Shown here: positions 1 to 8,378 of the stretch, piece by piece
Numbering within the stretch: position 1 is the first letter of the stretch
Layout: every line of letters starts with the position of its first letter
Assembly (NCBI RefSeq): GCF_013112485.1
Contig: NZ_JABFHG010000001.1
Location: 620,001 to 684,000, forward strand
Reading direction: 5' to 3'
Length of the DNA stretch: 64,000 nt
Source: Roseicella sp. DB1501
GTDB taxonomy: Bacteria > Pseudomonadota > Alphaproteobacteria > Acetobacterales > Acetobacteraceae
Notes under the pieces: generated by a model
What the model saw: only the letters and a program-made list of their open reading frames with translations
Databases searched by the model: none
What the model was told of the DNA's origin: nothing
Position numbers and translations under genes: made by a program

Positions 1-113
1 TCGCCGACGGGCTGCGCTTCGCCTGGACGGTGCATGCCCTCGATCCCGACGTGCTGTTCGACATCCCGCTGCACCGCGCCCGGCCGGGCGAGGCCGCCGG
101 CGCCGCGCCGTGA
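1..113 (+). CDS. C-terminal fragment of an unidentified protein
   Basis: The reading frame is open from the left edge and ends at TGA 111-113. Only about 36 residues are visible, ending in a run rich in Pro, Gly and Ala. The next gene starts with GTG at 110 inside this stop codon (GTGA overlap), so this is the upstream member of the dehydrogenase / PTPS-like / glycosyltransferase operon and is probably translationally coupled to it. The fragment is too short for me to assign a family. Confidence 0.6.
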   Translation, partial: ADGLRFAWTVHALDPDVLFDIPLHRARPGEAAGAAP

Positions 114-1102
114 CCGCGGCGGATGAGGGCCTGCGCGCCCGGGCGCTCTGGCTGGTCGCGCCCGGCCGCGCCGAGCTGCGCGAGGAGGTGCTGCCGCCGC
201 CCGCGCCGGGGGAGGTGCTGGTGCGCTGCCGCGCCTCCGCCCTGTCGCGCGGCACCGAGCGGCTGGTCTTCGAGGGGCGGGTGCCGCCGAGCCAGCACGC
301 CGCGATGCGCGCGCCGCTGATGGCCGGCGACTTCCCCTTTCCGGTGAAGTACGGCTACTGCGCCATGGGCGTGGCCGAGGAGGGCCCGCCGGCGCTGCGC
401 GGCCGCCGCGTCTTCGTCCTGCACCCGCACCAGGACCGCTTCCTCGCCCCCGCGGCCATGTGCATCCCGGTGCCGGATGCGGTGCCCGACCATCGCGCGG
501 TGCTCGCCGCCAATATGGAGACGGCGCTCAACATCCTCTGGGATGCGCGGCCGCTGCCGGGCGAGCGGGTGCTGGTCATCGGCGCCGGCGCGGTCGGGCT
601 GCTGGCTGCGGCGCTGCTCGCCCGCATGCCGGGCATCGCGCCGGTGGTCGTGGACCTCGATCCCGGCCGCGCCGCGCTCGCCACCGCCATCGGCGCCCGC
701 TTCGCCCCGCCGGAGGACGCGCCGGGCGAGCAGGAGCTGATCATCCATGCCAGCGCCAGCGCGGCCGGGCTGCAGCTCGCCCTCGACCGCGCCGGCTTCG
801 AGGCGCGCATCGTCGAGGCGAGCTGGCATGGCGATCGCGCCGTGTCGCTGCCGCTCGGCGAGGCCTTCCATGCGCGGCGCCTCGCCCTGCTCTCCTCGCA
901 GGTTGGCGCCGTCGCCCCGGCGATGCGCGGCCGCCGCAGCCATGCCGAGCGCCTCGCCCTGGCCCTCGCCCTGCTCGGGGATCCGCGGCTCGACGCGCTC
1001 TGCGCGCCGGTCGCCCGCTTCGCCGAGCTGCCGCAGCGGTTGCCCGGCCTCCTCGCGCGCGGCGCCGGCGCCCCCCCTTGCCCCGTCATCACCTATTCAT
1101 AG
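110..1102 (+). CDS. Zinc-type (MDR) dehydrogenase-like protein
   Basis: A 330-residue protein of the medium-chain dehydrogenase/reductase superfamily. The N-terminal half has the GroES-like pattern (PGEVLVRCRASALSRGTE, about residues 34-51), and a Rossmann nucleotide-binding motif VLVIGAGAVGLLAA lies near residue 154. The SRGTE segment resembles BchC-type and related 'zinc-binding alcohol dehydrogenases', and I see no typical structural-zinc cysteine cluster. GTG was chosen as the start because it overlaps the upstream TGA, the usual arrangement in coupled operons. It is followed 11 bp later by the PTPS-like gene. The substrate is unknown; in this operon it may reduce or oxidise a pterin or sugar intermediate, which is inference. 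Confidence 0.8.
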   Translation: MTAADEGLRARALWLVAPGRAELREEVLPPPAPGEVLVRCRASALSRGTERLVFEGRVPPSQHAAMRAPLMAGDFPFPVKYGYCAMGVAEEGPPALRGRRVFVLHPHQDRFLAPAAMCIPVPDAVPDHRAVLAANMETALNILWDARPLPGERVLVIGAGAVGLLAAALLARMPGIAPVVVDLDPGRAALATAIGARFAPPEDAPGEQELIIHASASAAGLQLALDRAGFEARIVEASWHGDRAVSLPLGEAFHARRLALLSSQVGAVAPAMRGRRSHAERLALALALLGDPRLDALCAPVARFAELPQRLPGLLARGAGAPPCPVITYS

Positions 1103-1113
1103 AGAGTGCCGCG

Positions 1114-1515
1114 ATGTTCTCGCTCACCGTCTGCGACCACATCATGGTCGCGCACAGCTTCCGTGGCGCCGAATTCGGCCCGGCCCAGCGCCTGCACGGC
1201 GCCACCTTCGCGGTGGAGGCGGAGTTCCGCGCGCCGCAGCTCGACCACCTGAACCTGCTGGTCGATATCGGCCTTGCCAAGACGGAGCTGCGCCGCGCCC
1301 TCGACGGGCTCGACTACCGCAATCTCGACGAGGAGGGGCAGTTCGCCGGGCAGAACACCACCACCGAATATCTCTGCCGGCACATCCACACGCTTCTCTG
1401 CGCCGCGCTGCGCGAGGGCCGGCTCGGGCCGCAGGGCAGCCAGGTCACTGGCCTGAAGGTGCTGCTGCGCGAGAGCCCGAATGCCTGGGCCGCCTATGAG
1501 GGCGCGGTCGCATGA
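1114..1515 (+). CDS. Divergent 6-pyruvoyl-tetrahydropterin synthase / QueD-like protein
   Basis: A 133-residue protein with the T-fold architecture of PTPS/QueD (6-carboxytetrahydropterin synthase). Conserved landmarks are AHSF (His14), RLHG (His28), LDYRNLD (residues 66-72) and RESPNAWAAY near the C-terminus with Glu120. Against the QueD pattern, several key positions are changed: the catalytic Cys before RLHG is Ala24, the second His of the HGH zinc motif is Ala30, and the catalytic His of LDH is Tyr68. Canonical dihydroneopterin triphosphate chemistry is therefore doubtful. Its partners are a dehydrogenase upstream and a glycosyltransferase and methyltransferase downstream. It may bind or modify another pterin, or have a non-catalytic role. 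Confidence 0.85.
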   Translation: MFSLTVCDHIMVAHSFRGAEFGPAQRLHGATFAVEAEFRAPQLDHLNLLVDIGLAKTELRRALDGLDYRNLDEEGQFAGQNTTTEYLCRHIHTLLCAALREGRLGPQGSQVTGLKVLLRESPNAWAAYEGAVA

Positions 1516-1558
1516 GACGTGCGCCGCCTAGGCCATCCGCCCGCGCCGGGGCCGCCGC

Positions 1559-2599
1559 ATGAGGATTGCCCTCCTCGTCCCGGCACCCTTCGAGACGCTC
1601 TCGGGCGGCTATATCTATGATCGGCGCATGGTCGAGGGCCTGCGCGCGCTCGGCCATGCGGTCGAGGTGGTGGAGCTCGCCGGCCGCCACCCGCTGCCCG
1701 ATGCGGCGGCCGAGGTGGCGGCGCGCGCCGCCCTCGCGGCGCTGCCCGAGGATGTGCGACCGGTCATCGACGGGCTCGGCCTGCCGGCCTTCGCCGAGTT
1801 CGCCGAGTCGCTCGCCGCCCGCCGCGCCATCGGCCTGATCCATCACCCGACGGCGCTCGAGCATGGCGCGCCGCAGGAGGACCGCGACGCGCTGCGCGGC
1901 ATCGAGCGCGACCTCTTCCCGCGCCTCGCCCGCATCCTCGCCACCTCGCCGCACACCGCGCAGCGCCTCGCCGCGGAGTTCGAGGTGCCGGCGGCGCGCA
2001 TCGGTGTGGTCGAGCCCGGCACCGACCCGGCGCCGCGCTCGCCCGGCTCCGGCGGCCCCGGCACGGCGATCCTCTCCGTCGGCACGCTGGTGCCGCGCAA
2101 GGGGCATGACGTGCTGATGCGCGCCCTGGCCGGGCTGCTCGACCTCGACTGGAGGCTGACCATCGCCGGCGGCAACGACCGCGACCGGGTGCATGCCGAG
2201 GGCCTGCAGGCGCTGGCCGAGACGCTCGGCCTCACGCGGCGCGTCACCTTCGCCGGCGAGGTGGACGTCGAGGCGCTGGAGGCGCTGTATCGCGGCGCCG
2301 ACATCTTCGCCCTCGCCACCTGGTGGGAAGGCTATGGCATGGCGGCGGCCGAGGCGCTGGCGCGCGGGCTGCCGGTCGCCATCACCGCCGGCGGCGCCAT
2401 CGCCGATCTCGTGCCGATCGAGGCCGGCGCCGTCTCGCCGCCCGGCGATGTCGTCTCCCTCACCAAGGCGCTGCGGCGGATGCTGGCCGATACCGAGATG
2501 CGCCAGGAGATGGCCGAGGCCGCCTGGCGGGCCGGCCAGCGCCTGCCGCGCTGGTCCGACCGCGCCGCCGCCTTCGCCGCCGAGCTGGAGCGCGCCTGA
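1559..2599 (+). CDS. Family 4 glycosyltransferase (GT-B fold)
   Basis: A 346-residue protein with the two-domain GT-B layout. The N-terminus (PFETLSGGYIYDRRMVEGL) is a typical acceptor-domain glycine-rich start. LSVGTLVPRKGHD near residue 171 is the interdomain donor-site motif, and WEGYGMAAAEALARGLPV near residue 257 holds the EX7E nucleotide-sugar motif of GT4 enzymes. The enzyme would transfer a sugar from a nucleotide-sugar in the cytoplasm. Its place directly after a PTPS-like gene, and before a methyltransferase 40 bp away, suggests that the acceptor is the product of the PTPS-like protein, such as a pterin. That pairing is inference. Confidence 0.85.
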   Translation: MRIALLVPAPFETLSGGYIYDRRMVEGLRALGHAVEVVELAGRHPLPDAAAEVAARAALAALPEDVRPVIDGLGLPAFAEFAESLAARRAIGLIHHPTALEHGAPQEDRDALRGIERDLFPRLARILATSPHTAQRLAAEFEVPAARIGVVEPGTDPAPRSPGSGGPGTAILSVGTLVPRKGHDVLMRALAGLLDLDWRLTIAGGNDRDRVHAEGLQALAETLGLTRRVTFAGEVDVEALEALYRGADIFALATWWEGYGMAAAEALARGLPVAITAGGAIADLVPIEAGAVSPPGDVVSLTKALRRMLADTEMRQEMAEAAWRAGQRLPRWSDRAAAFAAELERA

Positions 2600-2639
2600 T
2601 GCGGCGCTTGGTCAGACCCGCCGGACGCCGCGACGGCTG

Positions 2640-3539
2640 ATGGCCGAGGAATTCGATCCCGGCTGGCTCGAGCTGCGCGAGCCTGTCGATGCCGTCGCCC
2701 GCTCCGAGGCGCTGGCGGCGCGGCTGCTGGCGCGGCTGCCGGCGCGGCCACGCTTCCTCGATCTCGGCGCCGGCACCGGCAGCCTGCTGCGCTGGCTGGC
2801 GCCGCGCCTCGGCCGCGCCCAGGTCTGGACGCTGGTCGACAGCAGCCGCGACATGGCCGAGGCGGCCTTCGACACCATCGCCGACCGCGCCGACCAGGTG
2901 GGCTTCCCGGTCACCGCGCCGAACCGTCGTACCCTGCTGGTGCACGCCCCGGGCGGCGCCTGGCGGATCGAGACGCTCATCACCGACCTGGCCGAGGCGC
3001 CGGCCAACCTGCCGCTGGCGAATGCCGATGCGGTGGTGAGCTCGGCGCTCTGCGACCTCGTCTCCCGCCCCTGGCTGGAGCGCGTGGCCGCGGCGCTGCG
3101 CCTGCCCTTCTACGCCTCGCTCTGCGTCGACGGGCCGGCCCGCTTCACACCGCCGCATCCCGGCGATGCGCGCGTCGCGACCGGCTTCCGCCGCGACCAG
3201 GCGCGGGACAAGGGCTTCGGCGGTCCCGCGCTCGGCCCGCGCGCGCCGGCCGCGATCGCCGAGGTCTTCGCCGCGCGCGGCTTCGCGGTCGAGAGCGCGC
3301 CGAGCGACTGGCTGGTGCGGCAGCGCGGCTCGGTCGCGCATCCGGCGCTGCGCGACGTCGCCGATCCGCTGCTCGCAGCGCTCGTCGAGGACCATGCCGG
3401 AGCCGCGGCGCGGCAGGATGCGCGCAGCCTCGGCCGGATCGAGGCCTGGGCGGCGGCGCGCCTGGCGCAGGTGGAGGCGCAGCGCCTCTCGGCGCGGATC
3501 GGGCATCGGGACGTGCTGGCGCTGCCGCCGCGCGGCTGA
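2640..3539 (+). CDS. Class I SAM-dependent methyltransferase
   Basis: A 299-residue protein. The SAM-binding motif I, FLDLGAGTGSLLRWLAPRLG, lies near residues 39-58, and an acidic VDSS motif about 20 residues later is in the right place for ribose binding. The start ATG at 2640 overlaps the stop of a 13-codon open frame that itself begins at the glycosyltransferase stop (TGATG), so ribosomes could pass along this stretch. It is probably the last gene of the dehydrogenase / PTPS-like / glycosyltransferase operon. The substrate is unknown. Confidence 0.85.
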   Translation: MAEEFDPGWLELREPVDAVARSEALAARLLARLPARPRFLDLGAGTGSLLRWLAPRLGRAQVWTLVDSSRDMAEAAFDTIADRADQVGFPVTAPNRRTLLVHAPGGAWRIETLITDLAEAPANLPLANADAVVSSALCDLVSRPWLERVAAALRLPFYASLCVDGPARFTPPHPGDARVATGFRRDQARDKGFGGPALGPRAPAAIAEVFAARGFAVESAPSDWLVRQRGSVAHPALRDVADPLLAALVEDHAGAAARQDARSLGRIEAWAAARLAQVEAQRLSARIGHRDVLALPPRG

Positions 3540-3583: not shown

Positions 3584-4027
3584 ATGTCGCTGCCACCCGG
3601 ACTGACCTTCGGCATCGAGGATGCCCCATCGGAGGAGGACCTCGACGCCCTGCCCAGGGGCCTCGAGGCCTATAACGAGCAGCAATGGCCGGGGCACCAG
3701 CCCTGGCAGGTCGTCAATGTCCTTGCCCGCCGCGACGGCCGCGTCGCCGGCGGCCTGCGGGGCGAAATCTATGCCGGCTGGCTGTTCCTTCGCTATCTCT
3801 GGATCGAGGAGGGGCTGCGCGGCGGCGGCCTCGGCCGGCGCATCATCGCCGCCGCCGAGCGGCGGGCGCAGGCGAGCGGCTGCCACTCCGCCTGGGTCGA
3901 CACCTTCAGCTTCCAGGCGCCGGGCTTCTACGAGAAGCAGGGCTACGTGGAATTCGCCCGCCTGCCCTATCCGCCGAAGGGCGAGCGCCTCTTCCTGCGC
4001 AAGCGCCTGACGGAGGATGCGCCGTGA
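3584..4027 (+). CDS. GNAT-family N-acetyltransferase
   Basis: A 147-residue single-domain GNAT protein. The acetyl-CoA pyrophosphate loop is seen as EEGLRGGGLGRRII (about residues 79-92). A conserved aromatic end follows, FQAPGFYEKQGYVEF, which is the usual beta6-alpha4 region. It probably acetylates a small molecule or protein amine. It overlaps the next gene by GTGA (4024-4027), so the pair is co-transcribed. The acceptor cannot be predicted. Confidence 0.85.
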   Translation: MSLPPGLTFGIEDAPSEEDLDALPRGLEAYNEQQWPGHQPWQVVNVLARRDGRVAGGLRGEIYAGWLFLRYLWIEEGLRGGGLGRRIIAAAERRAQASGCHSAWVDTFSFQAPGFYEKQGYVEFARLPYPPKGERLFLRKRLTEDAP

Positions 4028-4512
4028 GCGGCCGCCCGATCGTCCGGCACCCGATCGCCCTGCGCGCGGCCGGGTTGCCGCCCCTGCCGCGCCCCGCCGG
4101 CTTCCCGTCCGACCTCGCCGCGAAGCTCGCGGGACGCGAGAAGCGGGTGCTCGGCGACCCCTTCGGCCTGCGCAATTTCGGCGTGAACCTCACCCGGCTC
4201 ACGCCGGGCGCCGCCTCCTCCCTGCATCATGCGCATGCGCGGCAGGATGAGTGGATCTACGTGCTGGAAGGAACGCCGACCCTGGTGCTCGGCACGGAGG
4301 AGCGCCGCCTCGCCGCCGGCGACTGCGCCGGCTTCCCGGCCGGCGGCCCGGCGCATCACCTGGTGAACCGCAGCGAGGGCGAGGTGCTCTATCTCGAGGT
4401 CGGCGACCGCAGCGCCGGCGACAGCGTTGCCTATCCGGAGGACGATCTGCAGGGGGAGATGCAGCCGGACGGGCGCTGGCGCTACACGCGCAGGGACGGC
4501 TCGCCGCTTTGA
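4024..4512 (+). CDS. Cupin-domain protein
   Basis: A 162-residue protein with one cupin barrel. Motif 1 is seen as SLHHAHARQDEWIYVLEG, with His, His and Glu metal ligands, and motif 2 as GFPAGGPAHHLVNRS. The C-terminal stretch GDRSAGDSVAYPEDDL is typical of small cytoplasmic cupins of unknown function. The GTG start overlaps the upstream GNAT stop codon. It may be a metal-dependent isomerase, epimerase or sensor. The family gives no firm substrate. Confidence 0.85.
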   Translation: MSGRPIVRHPIALRAAGLPPLPRPAGFPSDLAAKLAGREKRVLGDPFGLRNFGVNLTRLTPGAASSLHHAHARQDEWIYVLEGTPTLVLGTEERRLAAGDCAGFPAGGPAHHLVNRSEGEVLYLEVGDRSAGDSVAYPEDDLQGEMQPDGRWRYTRRDGSPL

Positions 4513-4579: not shown

Positions 4580-5845
4580 ATGCCCCTGCTCGGCTGCATC
4601 GCCGATGACTTCACCGGCGCGACCGACCTGGCGAACACCCTGGTCAAGGGCGGCATGACGGCCGTGCAGGTGATCGGCGTGCCGGATAGCGCGCTGCCCG
4701 AGGCGGATGCCGTCATCGTCGCGCTGAAGTCGCGCACCGCGCCGGTGCGGGAGGCGGTGGCCGAGAGCCTCGCCGCCTGCGAGGCGCTACTCAGCGCCGG
4801 GGCACGGCAGGTCTTCTTCAAGTACTGCTCCACCTTCGACAGCACCGATGCGGGCAATATCGGCCCCGTGGCGGATGCGCTGGTGCGTCGGCTGGGCTGC
4901 GGCTTCGCCCTCGCCAACCCGGCCTTCCCGACCAATGGGCGCACCGTCTACCAGGGGCATCTCTTCGTCGGCCAGGCGCTGCTGAACGAGAGCGGGATGG
5001 AGAACCACCCCCTCACCCCGATGCGGGATGCGAACCTCGTCCGCGTCCTCGGCCGGCAGACCGATGGCGCCGTCGGCCTCGTCCCCTTCGCCACCGTCGA
5101 GCAGGGCGCGACGGCGATCCGCCGGGCGATGACCGTGCTGAAGGAGAGCGGCCGCCGCTACGCCATCGTCGATGCGGTGACCGATGCGCATCTGCTGGCG
5201 ATCGGCGAGGCGGCGGCGGAGCATGCGCTGATCACCGGCGGCTCGGGCGTCGCCATGGGGCTGCCGGCGAATTTCCGCGCCAAGGGCCTGCTGCCCGAAC
5301 GCGGCGAGGCGGCGGCGGCGCTGCCGCCCATGCAGGGCCATGCGGCGGTGGTGGCGGGCTCCTGCTCGCGCGCGACGCTCGGCCAGATCGGCTATGCCCG
5401 CGACCATGCGCCGGTGCTCGAGCTCGACGTGCTGGCGCAGCCGGAGGCGGCGGCGCTGGCGGCCCAGGCATTGGAGTGGGCGGAGGGCAAGCTCGGCGCG
5501 CAGCCGGTCGTCATCGCAGCCAGCGCGCCGCCCGAGAAGGTGGCGGCGCTGCAGGCGAAGCTCGGCCGCGACGCCGCCGGCGCGCTGGTGGAACAGGCCC
5601 TCTCCACGGTCGCCGCCGGGCTGGTCGAGCGCGGCGTGCGGCGGCTGGTGGTGGCGGGCGGCGAGACATCGGGCGCCGTCGTCTCGCGCCTCGGCGTCGC
5701 CTCGCTGCGCATCGGGCCGGAGATCGATCCCGGCGTGCCCTGGACCTATGCCGAGATCGCGGGTCCCTCGGGCGGCCTGCACCTGGCGCTGAAGAGCGGC
5801 AACTTCGGGGCGCGCGACTTCTTCCTCAAGGCATTCGACGCTTAG
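4580..5845 (+). CDS. otnK: 3-oxo-tetronate kinase (four-carbon acid sugar kinase family)
   Basis: A 421-residue DUF1537-family protein. The N-terminal ADDFTGATDLAN motif (about residues 8-19) is the family signature of the sugar-binding domain, and the C-terminal domain carries GGETSGAVVSRLGV for nucleotide binding. Family members phosphorylate 3-oxo-tetronate or related C4 acid sugars. A good ribosome-binding site (GGGAGAGAG) lies 5-10 bases before the ATG. The aldolase otnC follows 18 bp downstream, matching the known otnK-otnC pair for L-threonate or D-erythronate breakdown. No isomerase (otnI) or dehydrogenase (ltnD) partner is adjacent. Confidence 0.87.
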   Translation: MPLLGCIADDFTGATDLANTLVKGGMTAVQVIGVPDSALPEADAVIVALKSRTAPVREAVAESLAACEALLSAGARQVFFKYCSTFDSTDAGNIGPVADALVRRLGCGFALANPAFPTNGRTVYQGHLFVGQALLNESGMENHPLTPMRDANLVRVLGRQTDGAVGLVPFATVEQGATAIRRAMTVLKESGRRYAIVDAVTDAHLLAIGEAAAEHALITGGSGVAMGLPANFRAKGLLPERGEAAAALPPMQGHAAVVAGSCSRATLGQIGYARDHAPVLELDVLAQPEAAALAAQALEWAEGKLGAQPVVIAASAPPEKVAALQAKLGRDAAGALVEQALSTVAAGLVERGVRRLVVAGGETSGAVVSRLGVASLRIGPEIDPGVPWTYAEIAGPSGGLHLALKSGNFGARDFFLKAFDA

Positions 5846-5863
5846 CGGAGAAGGGAAGACGCC

Positions 5864-6496
5864 ATGGATGAGACGGAGCTCCGCGAGGCCATCGCCACGC
5901 ATGGCAGGCTGCTCTTCGGCCGCGGCTATTCGGTCGGCAGCGCCGGCAATATCAGCGTCCGGCTGCCGGACGGCTATCTGATGACGCCGACCAACTCCTG
6001 CCTCGGCCGGCTGGACCCGGCGCGGATCAGCAAGCTCGACCCCGACTGGCGGCATGTCTCGGGCGACAAGCCCTCGAAGGAGGTCTTCATGCACCGCGCG
6101 GTGCTGGAGACGCGGCCGGAGGCGGGCGCCGTGGTGCACCTGCACTCCACCCATGCGACCGCCATCGCCTGCCTGGCCGCGCCGGGCGAGGCCGCGCCCA
6201 TCCCGCCGCTGACGCCCTATTTCGTCATGCGGGTCGGCCGCGTCCTGCCGGTGGTGCGCTACTACCGGCCGGGCGATGCGGCGATGGAGCCGGCGATCGC
6301 CGCGGCGGCGCGCGAGGCGCAGGCGATGCTGCTCGCCAATCACGGGCCGGTGGTCAGCGGCAGGACGCTCGACGACGCGGTCTACGCCGCGGAGGAGCTG
6401 GAGGAGGCGGCGAAGCTCGCCCTGCTGCTGCAGGGACGGCAGCCGCGCCTGCTGACTCCGGCCGAGATCGAGGACCTGCTCTCGGCCTTCGGCTGA
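5864..6496 (+). CDS. otnC: 3-oxo-tetronate 4-phosphate decarboxylase (class II aldolase/adducin family)
   Basis: A 210-residue class II aldolase. SAGNISVRLPDG near residues 26-37 binds the substrate phosphate. VVHLHSTHA near residues 88-96 gives two zinc-binding histidines, and ANHGPVV near residue 152 gives the third. The length fits the OtnC/AraD group. It would decarboxylate 3-oxo-tetronate 4-phosphate to dihydroxyacetone phosphate, downstream of the kinase encoded 18 bp upstream. A purine-rich ribosome-binding site (GAGAAGGGAAG) precedes the ATG. Confidence 0.87.
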   Translation: MDETELREAIATHGRLLFGRGYSVGSAGNISVRLPDGYLMTPTNSCLGRLDPARISKLDPDWRHVSGDKPSKEVFMHRAVLETRPEAGAVVHLHSTHATAIACLAAPGEAAPIPPLTPYFVMRVGRVLPVVRYYRPGDAAMEPAIAAAAREAQAMLLANHGPVVSGRTLDDAVYAAEELEEAAKLALLLQGRQPRLLTPAEIEDLLSAFG

Positions 6497-7367: not shown

Positions 7368-7994
7368 TCAGGTCGCGGAGGTCTCCTCGCTCATCGTCTC
7401 CGGCGCGGGCGCCGGGGTGGCGGCGGCGGCCTTCTTCGCCGCGCGGGTCGCGGCGGCCTTCTTCGCGGCCTCCGAGCGCGAGGAGGTCGCGGCCTTGGCG
7501 GCGGCGGCGCGCTTCGGCGCGGCGGTCTTGCGCGCGGCCGGCTTGCGGGCGGCGGTGGTCGCCTTACGAGCGGCGGGCTTGCGCGCGGTGGTCGTCGCCT
7601 TGCGGGCCGCCGGCTTGCGGGTGGTCGCGGCCTTACGAGCGGCGGGCTTGCGCGCCACCGCCTTCTTCGCCGTGGTGGCCTTGCGGGCGGCCGGCTTGCG
7701 CGCGGTGGTCGCCTTCTTCGTCGCGGTCTTGCGGGCGGCCGGCTTGCGCGCGGTCGTCGCCTTCTTCGCCGTGGTCTTGCGGGCGGCCGGCTTGCGCGCG
7801 GTCGTCGCCTTCTTCGCCGCGGGCTTGCGGGCGGCAGGCTTCTTGGCGGCGGTCTTCTTCGGCGCGGCGGCCTTGCGGGCGGCAGGCTTCTTGGCGGCGA
7901 CGCGGCCGCGCGCGGTGGCGGGCTTCTTGGCGGTGCGCCGCGTGGTCGACATCGCCATCGCCTGCGCCTTCGGGGTCTCGGGAGTATCGGTCAC
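7368..7994 (-). CDS. Lys/Ala/Pro-rich histone H1-like DNA-binding protein
   Basis: A 208-residue, strongly basic, low-complexity protein. From about residue 15 to 185 it consists of repeated ARKPAARK-, KKATTARK- and AAKK-type units, like the C-terminal tail of eukaryotic histone H1 and bacterial H1-like proteins (Hc1, AlgP). The short N-terminus (TDTPETPKAQ) and the last 15 residues are acidic or neutral. GTG at 7992-7994 was chosen because AAGGAG lies nine bases upstream. It probably binds and compacts DNA or alters transcription. Promoter-like sequence lies about 380 bp upstream, giving an unusually long leader if real. Confidence 0.85.
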   Translation of the reverse strand: MTDTPETPKAQAMAMSTTRRTAKKPATARGRVAAKKPAARKAAAPKKTAAKKPAARKPAAKKATTARKPAARKTTAKKATTARKPAARKTATKKATTARKPAARKATTAKKAVARKPAARKAATTRKPAARKATTTARKPAARKATTAARKPAARKTAAPKRAAAAKAATSSRSEAAKKAAATRAAKKAAAATPAPAPETMSEETSAT

Positions 7995-8378
7995 GGTCAG
8001 GATCTCCTTGCGCGTTCCGTGGTGAGCCAGGATGCCGCGGCGCGGCCTTCCCGGGTGGAGGCAGGAACGGTCGTGCGATGGCGGCGGCGCGCGGATCCCG
8101 TAGCGCGTGGCGCCGTCGTGGTCGCTGTCCAGGTCGCGCGAGCGGAACGCGGCCGGGGGCGATCGGCGGCACCTGGCCGCATCATGCCTCCCTCGGCTGC
8201 ATCTCCCTCGCCGGGCTTGGCATCGTTGCCCGGCACCGGCGCGGGACCTTCGACGCGGCGCGTCGCCATCCCGTGCTGCCTGCGGTCCATGGACCGTCCT
8301 TCCCTGCTGCGGCATGCCGTCGCTGGTTGCGGCGATTGCGGATCGTGCGAATCGCGTGCGACGTCCTGCGCAATGCAC

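Follow-up and report, generated by a model that had tools for sequence, protein, structure and literature searches.

The first 3,539 nucleotides of a 64,000-nucleotide stretch from Roseicella sp. DB1501 (the window; contig NZ_JABFHG010000001.1, positions 620,001 to 684,000, or G000:C1:620001-684000, of a 5.99 Mb genome in 47 contigs) carry an operon encoding a member of the PTPS family. By its sequence this protein is a PTPS-IV (COG0720), a subfamily already in the literature, one member of which has a solved structure. PTPS-IV is a deeply conserved protein of a textbook superfamily, stripped of the usual catalytic residues and encoded in a conserved operon. Judged from its conserved partner genes, it may take part in making, from GTP, a methylated molecule that bears a sugar. 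According to the scheme proposed here, which we consider evenly poised between right and wrong, the operon would branch from 2,5-diamino-6-ribosylamino-4(3H)-pyrimidinone 5'-phosphate (DARoPP), the product of GTP cyclohydrolase II (GCH II), and lead to a 2-amino-4-oxo-pyrimidine or pteridine that carries a sugar and a methyl group.

The PTPS-IV subfamily was defined in 2017 as cluster-node 62, made by 561 sequences carrying the signature FGPAQ (PMC5445326). Since that report exists and the structure 3D7J has been solved, the word undescribed used in the initial annotation has to be dropped for the subfamily. In the window protein FGPAQ spans residues 21–25, HGA residues 28–30 and DY residues 67–68; Glu120, His14 and His28 are kept. 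Alignment to Escherichia coli QueD and solved PTPS chains places Ala24 at the position of the catalytic Cys (Cys27 of E. coli QueD, counted by CxxxHGH), Ala30 at that of the third zinc-binding His, and Tyr68 at that of the catalytic His. These replacements, and the retention of Glu120, had been read correctly from the beginning. The chain 3qna, which we take to be the C27A mutant, also aligns with Ala at the Cys27 position. None of the motifs of the other subfamilies is found in the window protein. The QueD (PTPS-I) motif CxxxHGH is replaced by AQRLHGA; in the PTPS-II (biopterin) motif CxxxxxHGH the Cys position is occupied by Gly22, in the PTPS-III (folate) motif ExxHGH the Glu position by Gln25, and both end in HGA.

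Residue changes were counted in 135 distinct relatives, obtained by merging 149 loci (the short L079 and identical copies were dropped, L078 was kept). The Cys position is occupied by Ala in all 135; HGA and Glu120 are each found in 134, FGPAQ in 130. At the position of the catalytic His residues are Tyr (120 proteins), Phe (8), Leu (4) or Met (3). Only L078, the frame of which runs into glycosyltransferase sequence, departs from the pattern at positions 30 and 120. Relatives keeping the Cys, the HGH motif or the catalytic His were searched for among the 135 proteins, and none was found. Asp67, the triad Asp, is retained in 74 proteins only. Conservation of T83, T84 and E85 is high (129, 131 and 135 proteins, respectively), and further conserved polar residues are Q25 (132), T31 (135), N70 (133) and D72 (135). 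Because counts are near-uniform over the set, the loss of residues is read as an old trait of the subfamily, held under constraint, and not as local decay. An altered function had been predicted for the window protein, and the prediction withstood the comparison with the whole set; as far as residues can tell, a changed PTPS function is the right reading. Among the named relatives found, Roseicella frigidaeris is the nearest, with a PTPS protein 95% identical to that of the window.

PTPS-IV proteins form a discrete sequence group, as profile scores are bimodal. In a scan of the class, PTPS-IV was identified in 45 of 385 genomes, all matches scoring 138.8 bits or more; in a scan of 398 genomes of the phylum, 27 matches reached 149 bits or more, and 54 did not exceed 60 bits (E limit 1e-12). 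A profile built from ten relatives (A1) retrieved from the PDB, as top match, 3D7J (SCO6650 of Streptomyces coelicolor) with 195 bits, vs 38.6 bits for the next chain.

The dehydrogenase, PTPS, glycosyltransferase (GT) and methyltransferase genes, delimited by reading frames and family searches, lie on the + strand where the initial annotation had set them (Table 1). They are tightly packed, with intergenic gaps of 11, 43 and 40 bases. This set of four holds, but the operon begins upstream of the window, with a RibD_C reductase gene (about -708 to 113, clipped by the window edge). The stop of this gene and the GTG start of the dehydrogenase share 4 bases (GTGA). RibD_C is the sole Pfam match of the reductase (E 9.6e-39), no deaminase domain being detected in the Pfam search; the NCBIfam model ribD_Cterm scores 125 bits, below its cut-off of 150, and the best PDB match is 6p8c, named 2,5-diamino-6-ribosylamino-4(3H)-pyrimidinone 5'-phosphate reductase. 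The dehydrogenase has no Pfam match at 1e-3. Its best NCBIfam model is BchC, at 57.6 bits vs a cut-off of 291, and other dehydrogenase models are below cut-off as well. It had been called zinc-type: assignment to the MDR superfamily stands, the term zinc-type being a superfamily name only. A scan for promoters and terminators found none, and is uninformative at such GC content.

Table 1. Genes of the PTPS-IV operon (positions in the window)
Gene product	Position	Strand	Size, motifs and matches
RibD_C-type pyrimidine/pterin reductase, 3' end	1..113	+	whole gene L002:13292-14113, 273 aa
MDR-superfamily dehydrogenase, distantly BchC-like	110..1102	+	GTG start; NCBIfam models below cut-offs
PTPS-IV protein (COG0720)	1114..1515	+	133 aa; Pfam PTPS 77.9 bits, E 8e-22
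GT4 glycosyltransferase	1559..2599	+	E-x7-E motif (EGYGMAAAE); Pfam Glycos_transf_1 E 4.2e-30
Class I SAM methyltransferase	2640..3539	+	LDLGAG motif; Pfam Methyltransf_25 E 1.3e-6

Neighbouring genes were counted within 6.5 kb in 61 loci spanning 32 family labels, chosen by the PTPS match alone. This first set includes 40 of the 45 class matches (without G270, G280, G293 and G416; G000 is L002) and 18 of the 27 strong phylum matches (without G737, G476, G703, G594 and G686; G000, G062, G141 and G223 already counted), and is completed by G003, G025 and L002. Counts are lower bounds, as some loci stop at contig edges. The dehydrogenase was found in 60 loci, the GT in 58, the methyltransferase in 55 and RibD_C in 49. 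Less frequent neighbours are CDP-alcohol phosphatidyltransferase (23 loci), RibA (22, leaving out a degenerate RibBA located 8.9 kb away in L105), YceI (14), cytochrome b561 (13), FkbM methyltransferase (11), creatininase (10), LPG_synthase_TM (7, counted with Pfam- or record-annotated queries) and sulfatase (6). Conservation of the operon exceeds chance.

A second set of 61 loci (L022-L082), mostly Acetobacteraceae or Rhodospirillales by title, shares at least two genomes with the first (G003 and G025, which are L022 and L025 by place). Where at least 2 kb of upstream sequence are available, the dehydrogenase is found upstream in 53/53 loci and RibD_C in 51/53. Where at least 3 kb are available, the GT is found downstream in 41 of 55 loci and the methyltransferase in 39. 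The core is thus made by RibD_C, dehydrogenase and PTPS-IV; GT and methyltransferase are common but optional additions to it, as 14 and 16 of these 55 loci, respectively, lack them downstream. The four-gene neighbourhood initially described is accordingly conserved in other genomes, as the 61 loci indicate, although its two last genes are not obligatory. GT4 and methyltransferase are fused in one frame in 4 of the 61 loci of the first set (L125, L126, L127, L129; 655 aa in L126), all from other classes of the phylum. Clusters with several partners reside on named plasmids of Thiodictyon, Rhizobium, Methylosinus, Microbacterium, Palleronia and two Streptomyces; an Arthrobacter plasmid has matches to dehydrogenase and GT only.

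In the proposed pathway the operon would divert DARoPP from riboflavin synthesis. RibD_C would reduce either the sugar or the ring. PTPS-IV would grip the 2-amino-4-oxo-pyrimidine ring through the kept glutamate, and either rearrange the side chain or present a reduced intermediate, with neither zinc nor the Cys/His pair. The dehydrogenase would oxidise or reduce the side chain, and GT and methyltransferase would decorate the product. The zinc-assisted proton shuttle of PTPS and QueD should not run, because the protein has lost the catalytic Cys/His pair together with one of the ligands of the zinc. The edge of the 2-amino-4-oxo-pyrimidine could be held by the kept Glu with T83, T84 and E85, and a bigger side chain would find room at positions 24 and 30, where the residues are small. 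Because RibD_C shows no deaminase domain, the 2-amino group, target of the pterin-type Glu anchor, would survive. The product may be lipid-linked in some lineages, as genes for CDP-alcohol phosphatidyltransferase, LPG-synthase-TM and sulfatase are found nearby.

The substrate at the entry is suggested by the RibA genes. According to PMC5445326, the neighbourhood of PTPS-IV includes PF00925 and PF01872 (RibD_C) genes; the former is labelled there GTP cyclohydrolase I/FolE2, whereas the Pfam definition is GTP cyclohydrolase II. Linked to PTPS-IV in 22 of 61 loci, PF00925 genes are frequent neighbours, not a defining feature. The three zinc Cys and Tyr105 are kept in all the 22 linked intact RibA proteins of the first set, as in the RibA of the Rhizobium SL42 and Palleronia plasmids. 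Both Streptomyces plasmid clusters in which RibA, a Pfam GCH II protein, was found (L154, L167) have Met at the Tyr105 position, as aligned in L154 and read by eye in L167, and a creatininase-family match nearby. In S. coelicolor, the Met-type GCH II reportedly stops at the formylated product (Spoonamore 2006). A creatininase-family enzyme of Sinorhizobium has been shown to deformylate AFRPP to DARoPP (PMC9478397). Both RibA arrangements would converge on DARoPP, because it would be formed either by a Tyr-type GCH II, or by a Met-type GCH II assisted by a creatininase-family deformylase. The initial annotation had proposed to assay 7,8-dihydroneopterin triphosphate turnover by a PTPS fold set among GT and methyltransferase genes. 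The loss of the usual catalytic residues proved family-wide; as to the substrate, a branch from a riboflavin precursor is favoured over dihydroneopterin triphosphate, because the linked GTP-opening enzyme, where found, is GCH II.

The window genome has no PF00925 gene linked to the operon. Three PF00925 matches were found in it, and the RibA on contig C23 is the only one shown with the zinc cysteines and Tyr105 (the third match lies outside the alignment). The RibBA gene (L144:1474-2802, G000:C43), located beside a second RibD-type gene, encodes a GCH II domain from which the three zinc cysteines are missing. The third homologue (L145:778-2079, G000:C1:216702-217145) has an altered cysteine region, ECNGSDVFGSDICTC, and is presumably of the uracil-catabolism type.

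Several observations weigh against a dedicated GCH II and DARoPP entry. RibA was found in a minority of loci, some of which stop at contig edges, and in the window genome it sits on a separate contig from the operon. Long-form RibA is present also in family members without PTPS-IV (15 of 24 long-form genomes have PTPS-IV), and three PTPS-IV genomes of the family lack it by the criterion applied (no match in G001, partial matches in G006 and G018). In the window genome the GCH II cysteines are gone from RibBA, and long-form RibA is met in relatives both with and without PTPS-IV; the RibA of this genome may therefore be the housekeeping GCH II. As a dedicated partner it was rejected in this genome, the long form occurring also in relatives devoid of PTPS-IV. 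The creatininase of L154 scores 141 bits with MftE vs 37 with ArfB, both below cut-off. Creatininase genes lie beside a Tyr-type RibA in 6 loci, where a deformylase should be superfluous, and are present in 4 loci without RibA. Matches to partner queries are missing near the Streptomyces plasmid copies L148, L150 and L168, and loci in which GT or methyltransferase is absent downstream also count against the scheme. The fold of RibD_C, moreover, includes dihydrofolate reductase (weak PDB match), and the window genome has two GTP cyclohydrolase I (GCH I) genes, so that a pterin might enter the operon via GCH I.

Such a pterin route, in line with the initial annotation, would start from a dihydropterin made through GCH I; RibD_C would act as dihydropterin reductase, PTPS-IV would reshape the side chain, and the GT would form a pterin glycoside, as in cyanobacteria. 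The two GCH I genes agree with it, as do the presence of a GT4 in the operon and of a PTPS-family protein which keeps Glu120, T83, T84 and E85. However, GCH II is the GTP-opening enzyme found in linkage, RibD_C has a pyrimidinone phosphate reductase as best PDB match, and none of the families recurring in the neighbourhood was recognised as GCH I, in a comparison which left several of them unnamed and used no GCH I model. The route is unlikely, though worth keeping in view. PTPS-IV might alternatively be a pseudoenzyme, a non-catalytic binding or scaffold protein which shields a pteridine-like intermediate or hands it to the enzymes encoded next to it. In its favour, no relative counted has kept the Cys, the catalytic His or the third zinc-binding His, and the triad Asp is found in little more than half of them, whereas the anchor Glu is retained in 134 of 135; the newly conserved polar residues Q25, T31, N70 and D72 suggest instead a rebuilt active site, and make a purely binding role improbable. 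That the window protein is an ordinary QueD or PTPS with drifted residues is hardly credible. In public plasmid records PTPS-IV proteins are annotated as 6-carboxytetrahydropterin synthase and given a GO term for queuosine, but their residues contradict the annotation. A second PTPS-family protein of the window genome carries CALPHGH (L161:1492-2016, G000:C12), and its gene is directly followed by a QueE gene (L161:2019-2645; 354 bits vs a cut-off of 240). Because this paralogue adjoins queE, QueD function is probably covered by it. The QueD model TIGR03367 (cut-off 89.25) scores 38.6 bits with the window protein and 51.7 with the paralogue; since the latter also falls below cut-off, the score alone is not decisive. 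Identity with a normal QueD was rejected on the loss of residues in 135/135 relatives and on the separate CALPHGH gene beside queE.

A role of PTPS-IV in the synthesis of the deazaflavin cofactor F420 has been proposed in PMC5041015, which lists the subfamily and refers to unpublished data. As the name of an enzyme, PTPS-IV was met only there and in PMC5445326, in a search covering few subscription papers, which does not make the function unpublished. An F420 ligase (231.9 bits; G000:C2:128619-129251, L164) is encoded in the window genome. In the family to which the window belongs the ligase was found in 10 of 18 genomes with PTPS-IV vs 2 of 17 others, and among 59 near relatives in 10 of 19 vs 5 of 40 (nominal p 0.003), an excess to which a single genus contributes five genomes and which is measured by a statistic ignoring shared descent. 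Two g239 genomes have the ligase about 8 kb from PTPS-IV. The association vanishes in the class: F420 ligase (PF01996) matches, present in 71 of the 385 genomes, occur in 8 of 45 genomes with PTPS-IV and in 63 of 340 without (odds ratio 0.95, p 1.0), and 37 of the 45 have no match to it. F420 synthesis as the general role was rejected on this lack of class-wide co-occurrence, despite the excess in near relatives, and participation of PTPS-IV in it is very improbable.

Extending the DARoPP branch beyond the window, we tentatively envisage, at less than even chance, a widespread undescribed pathway of Proteobacteria and Actinomycetota. It would derive from GTP and leave the riboflavin route at DARoPP, supplied by ordinary GCH II or, in Streptomyces, by a Met-type GCH II acting with a deformylase of the creatininase family, and would use a zinc-free T-fold enzyme with new chemistry to yield a glycosylated, methylated pteridine or diaminopyrimidine. 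New here are the census of the neighbourhood, the optional status of GT and methyltransferase, the two putative DARoPP routes and the lack of a class-wide association with F420 ligase. DARoPP entry, optional GT and methyltransferase, and the F420 null result lead to testable predictions. If the product were a new pteridine glycoside or cofactor, the genes for it would be found in about one in nine of the class genomes sampled (45/385).

Genes located downstream of the methyltransferase were not kept as operon members. They encode a GNAT protein (3584-4027), a cupin (4024-4512) and a 3-oxo-tetronate kinase. GNAT matches were found in at least 10 of 79 loci and cupin matches in at least 11; both counts are lower bounds, as 19 of the 79 loci measure less than 3.5 kb and others stop near the operon (an 80th, L021, is without any match). 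The kinase gene (NCBIfam 610 bits) precedes a gene resembling class II aldolases, recognised by eye, and the two (window 4580-6496) look like a sugar-acid catabolism pair, outside the operon. On the minus strand, a Lys/Ala-rich frame with KKPAARK repeats (window 7368-8025) is similar, by eye, to histone H1-like bacterial proteins.

PTPS-IV can be compared with four known systems. With QueD and other PTPS-I proteins the window protein has in common the Pfam PTPS family, His14, His28 and Glu120; it differs in being devoid of the Cys, of HGH and of the catalytic His, and in residing outside the queuosine gene set. SCO6650 (3D7J) shares with it a match over the full length, FGPAQ, HGA and NYRNLD, and is reportedly without zinc, catalytic triad and PTPS activity. 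SCO6655, which we take to be a GCH II paralogue of S. coelicolor forming the formylated product, differs from the RibA of the window genome, which is Tyr-type. The riboflavin entry made by the formamidase BrbF/ArfB and RibA, as presented in PMC9478397, has counterparts in the creatininase (10/61) and RibA (22/61) genes of PTPS-IV loci, but neither gene is linked to the PTPS-IV operon in the window genome. The published PTPS-IV subfamily (COG0720, IPR007115) is the closest: compared with its description in PMC5445326 no distinguishing feature was found, FGPAQ and a RibD_C gene in the operon are common to both, and the window protein is, by these features, one more member.

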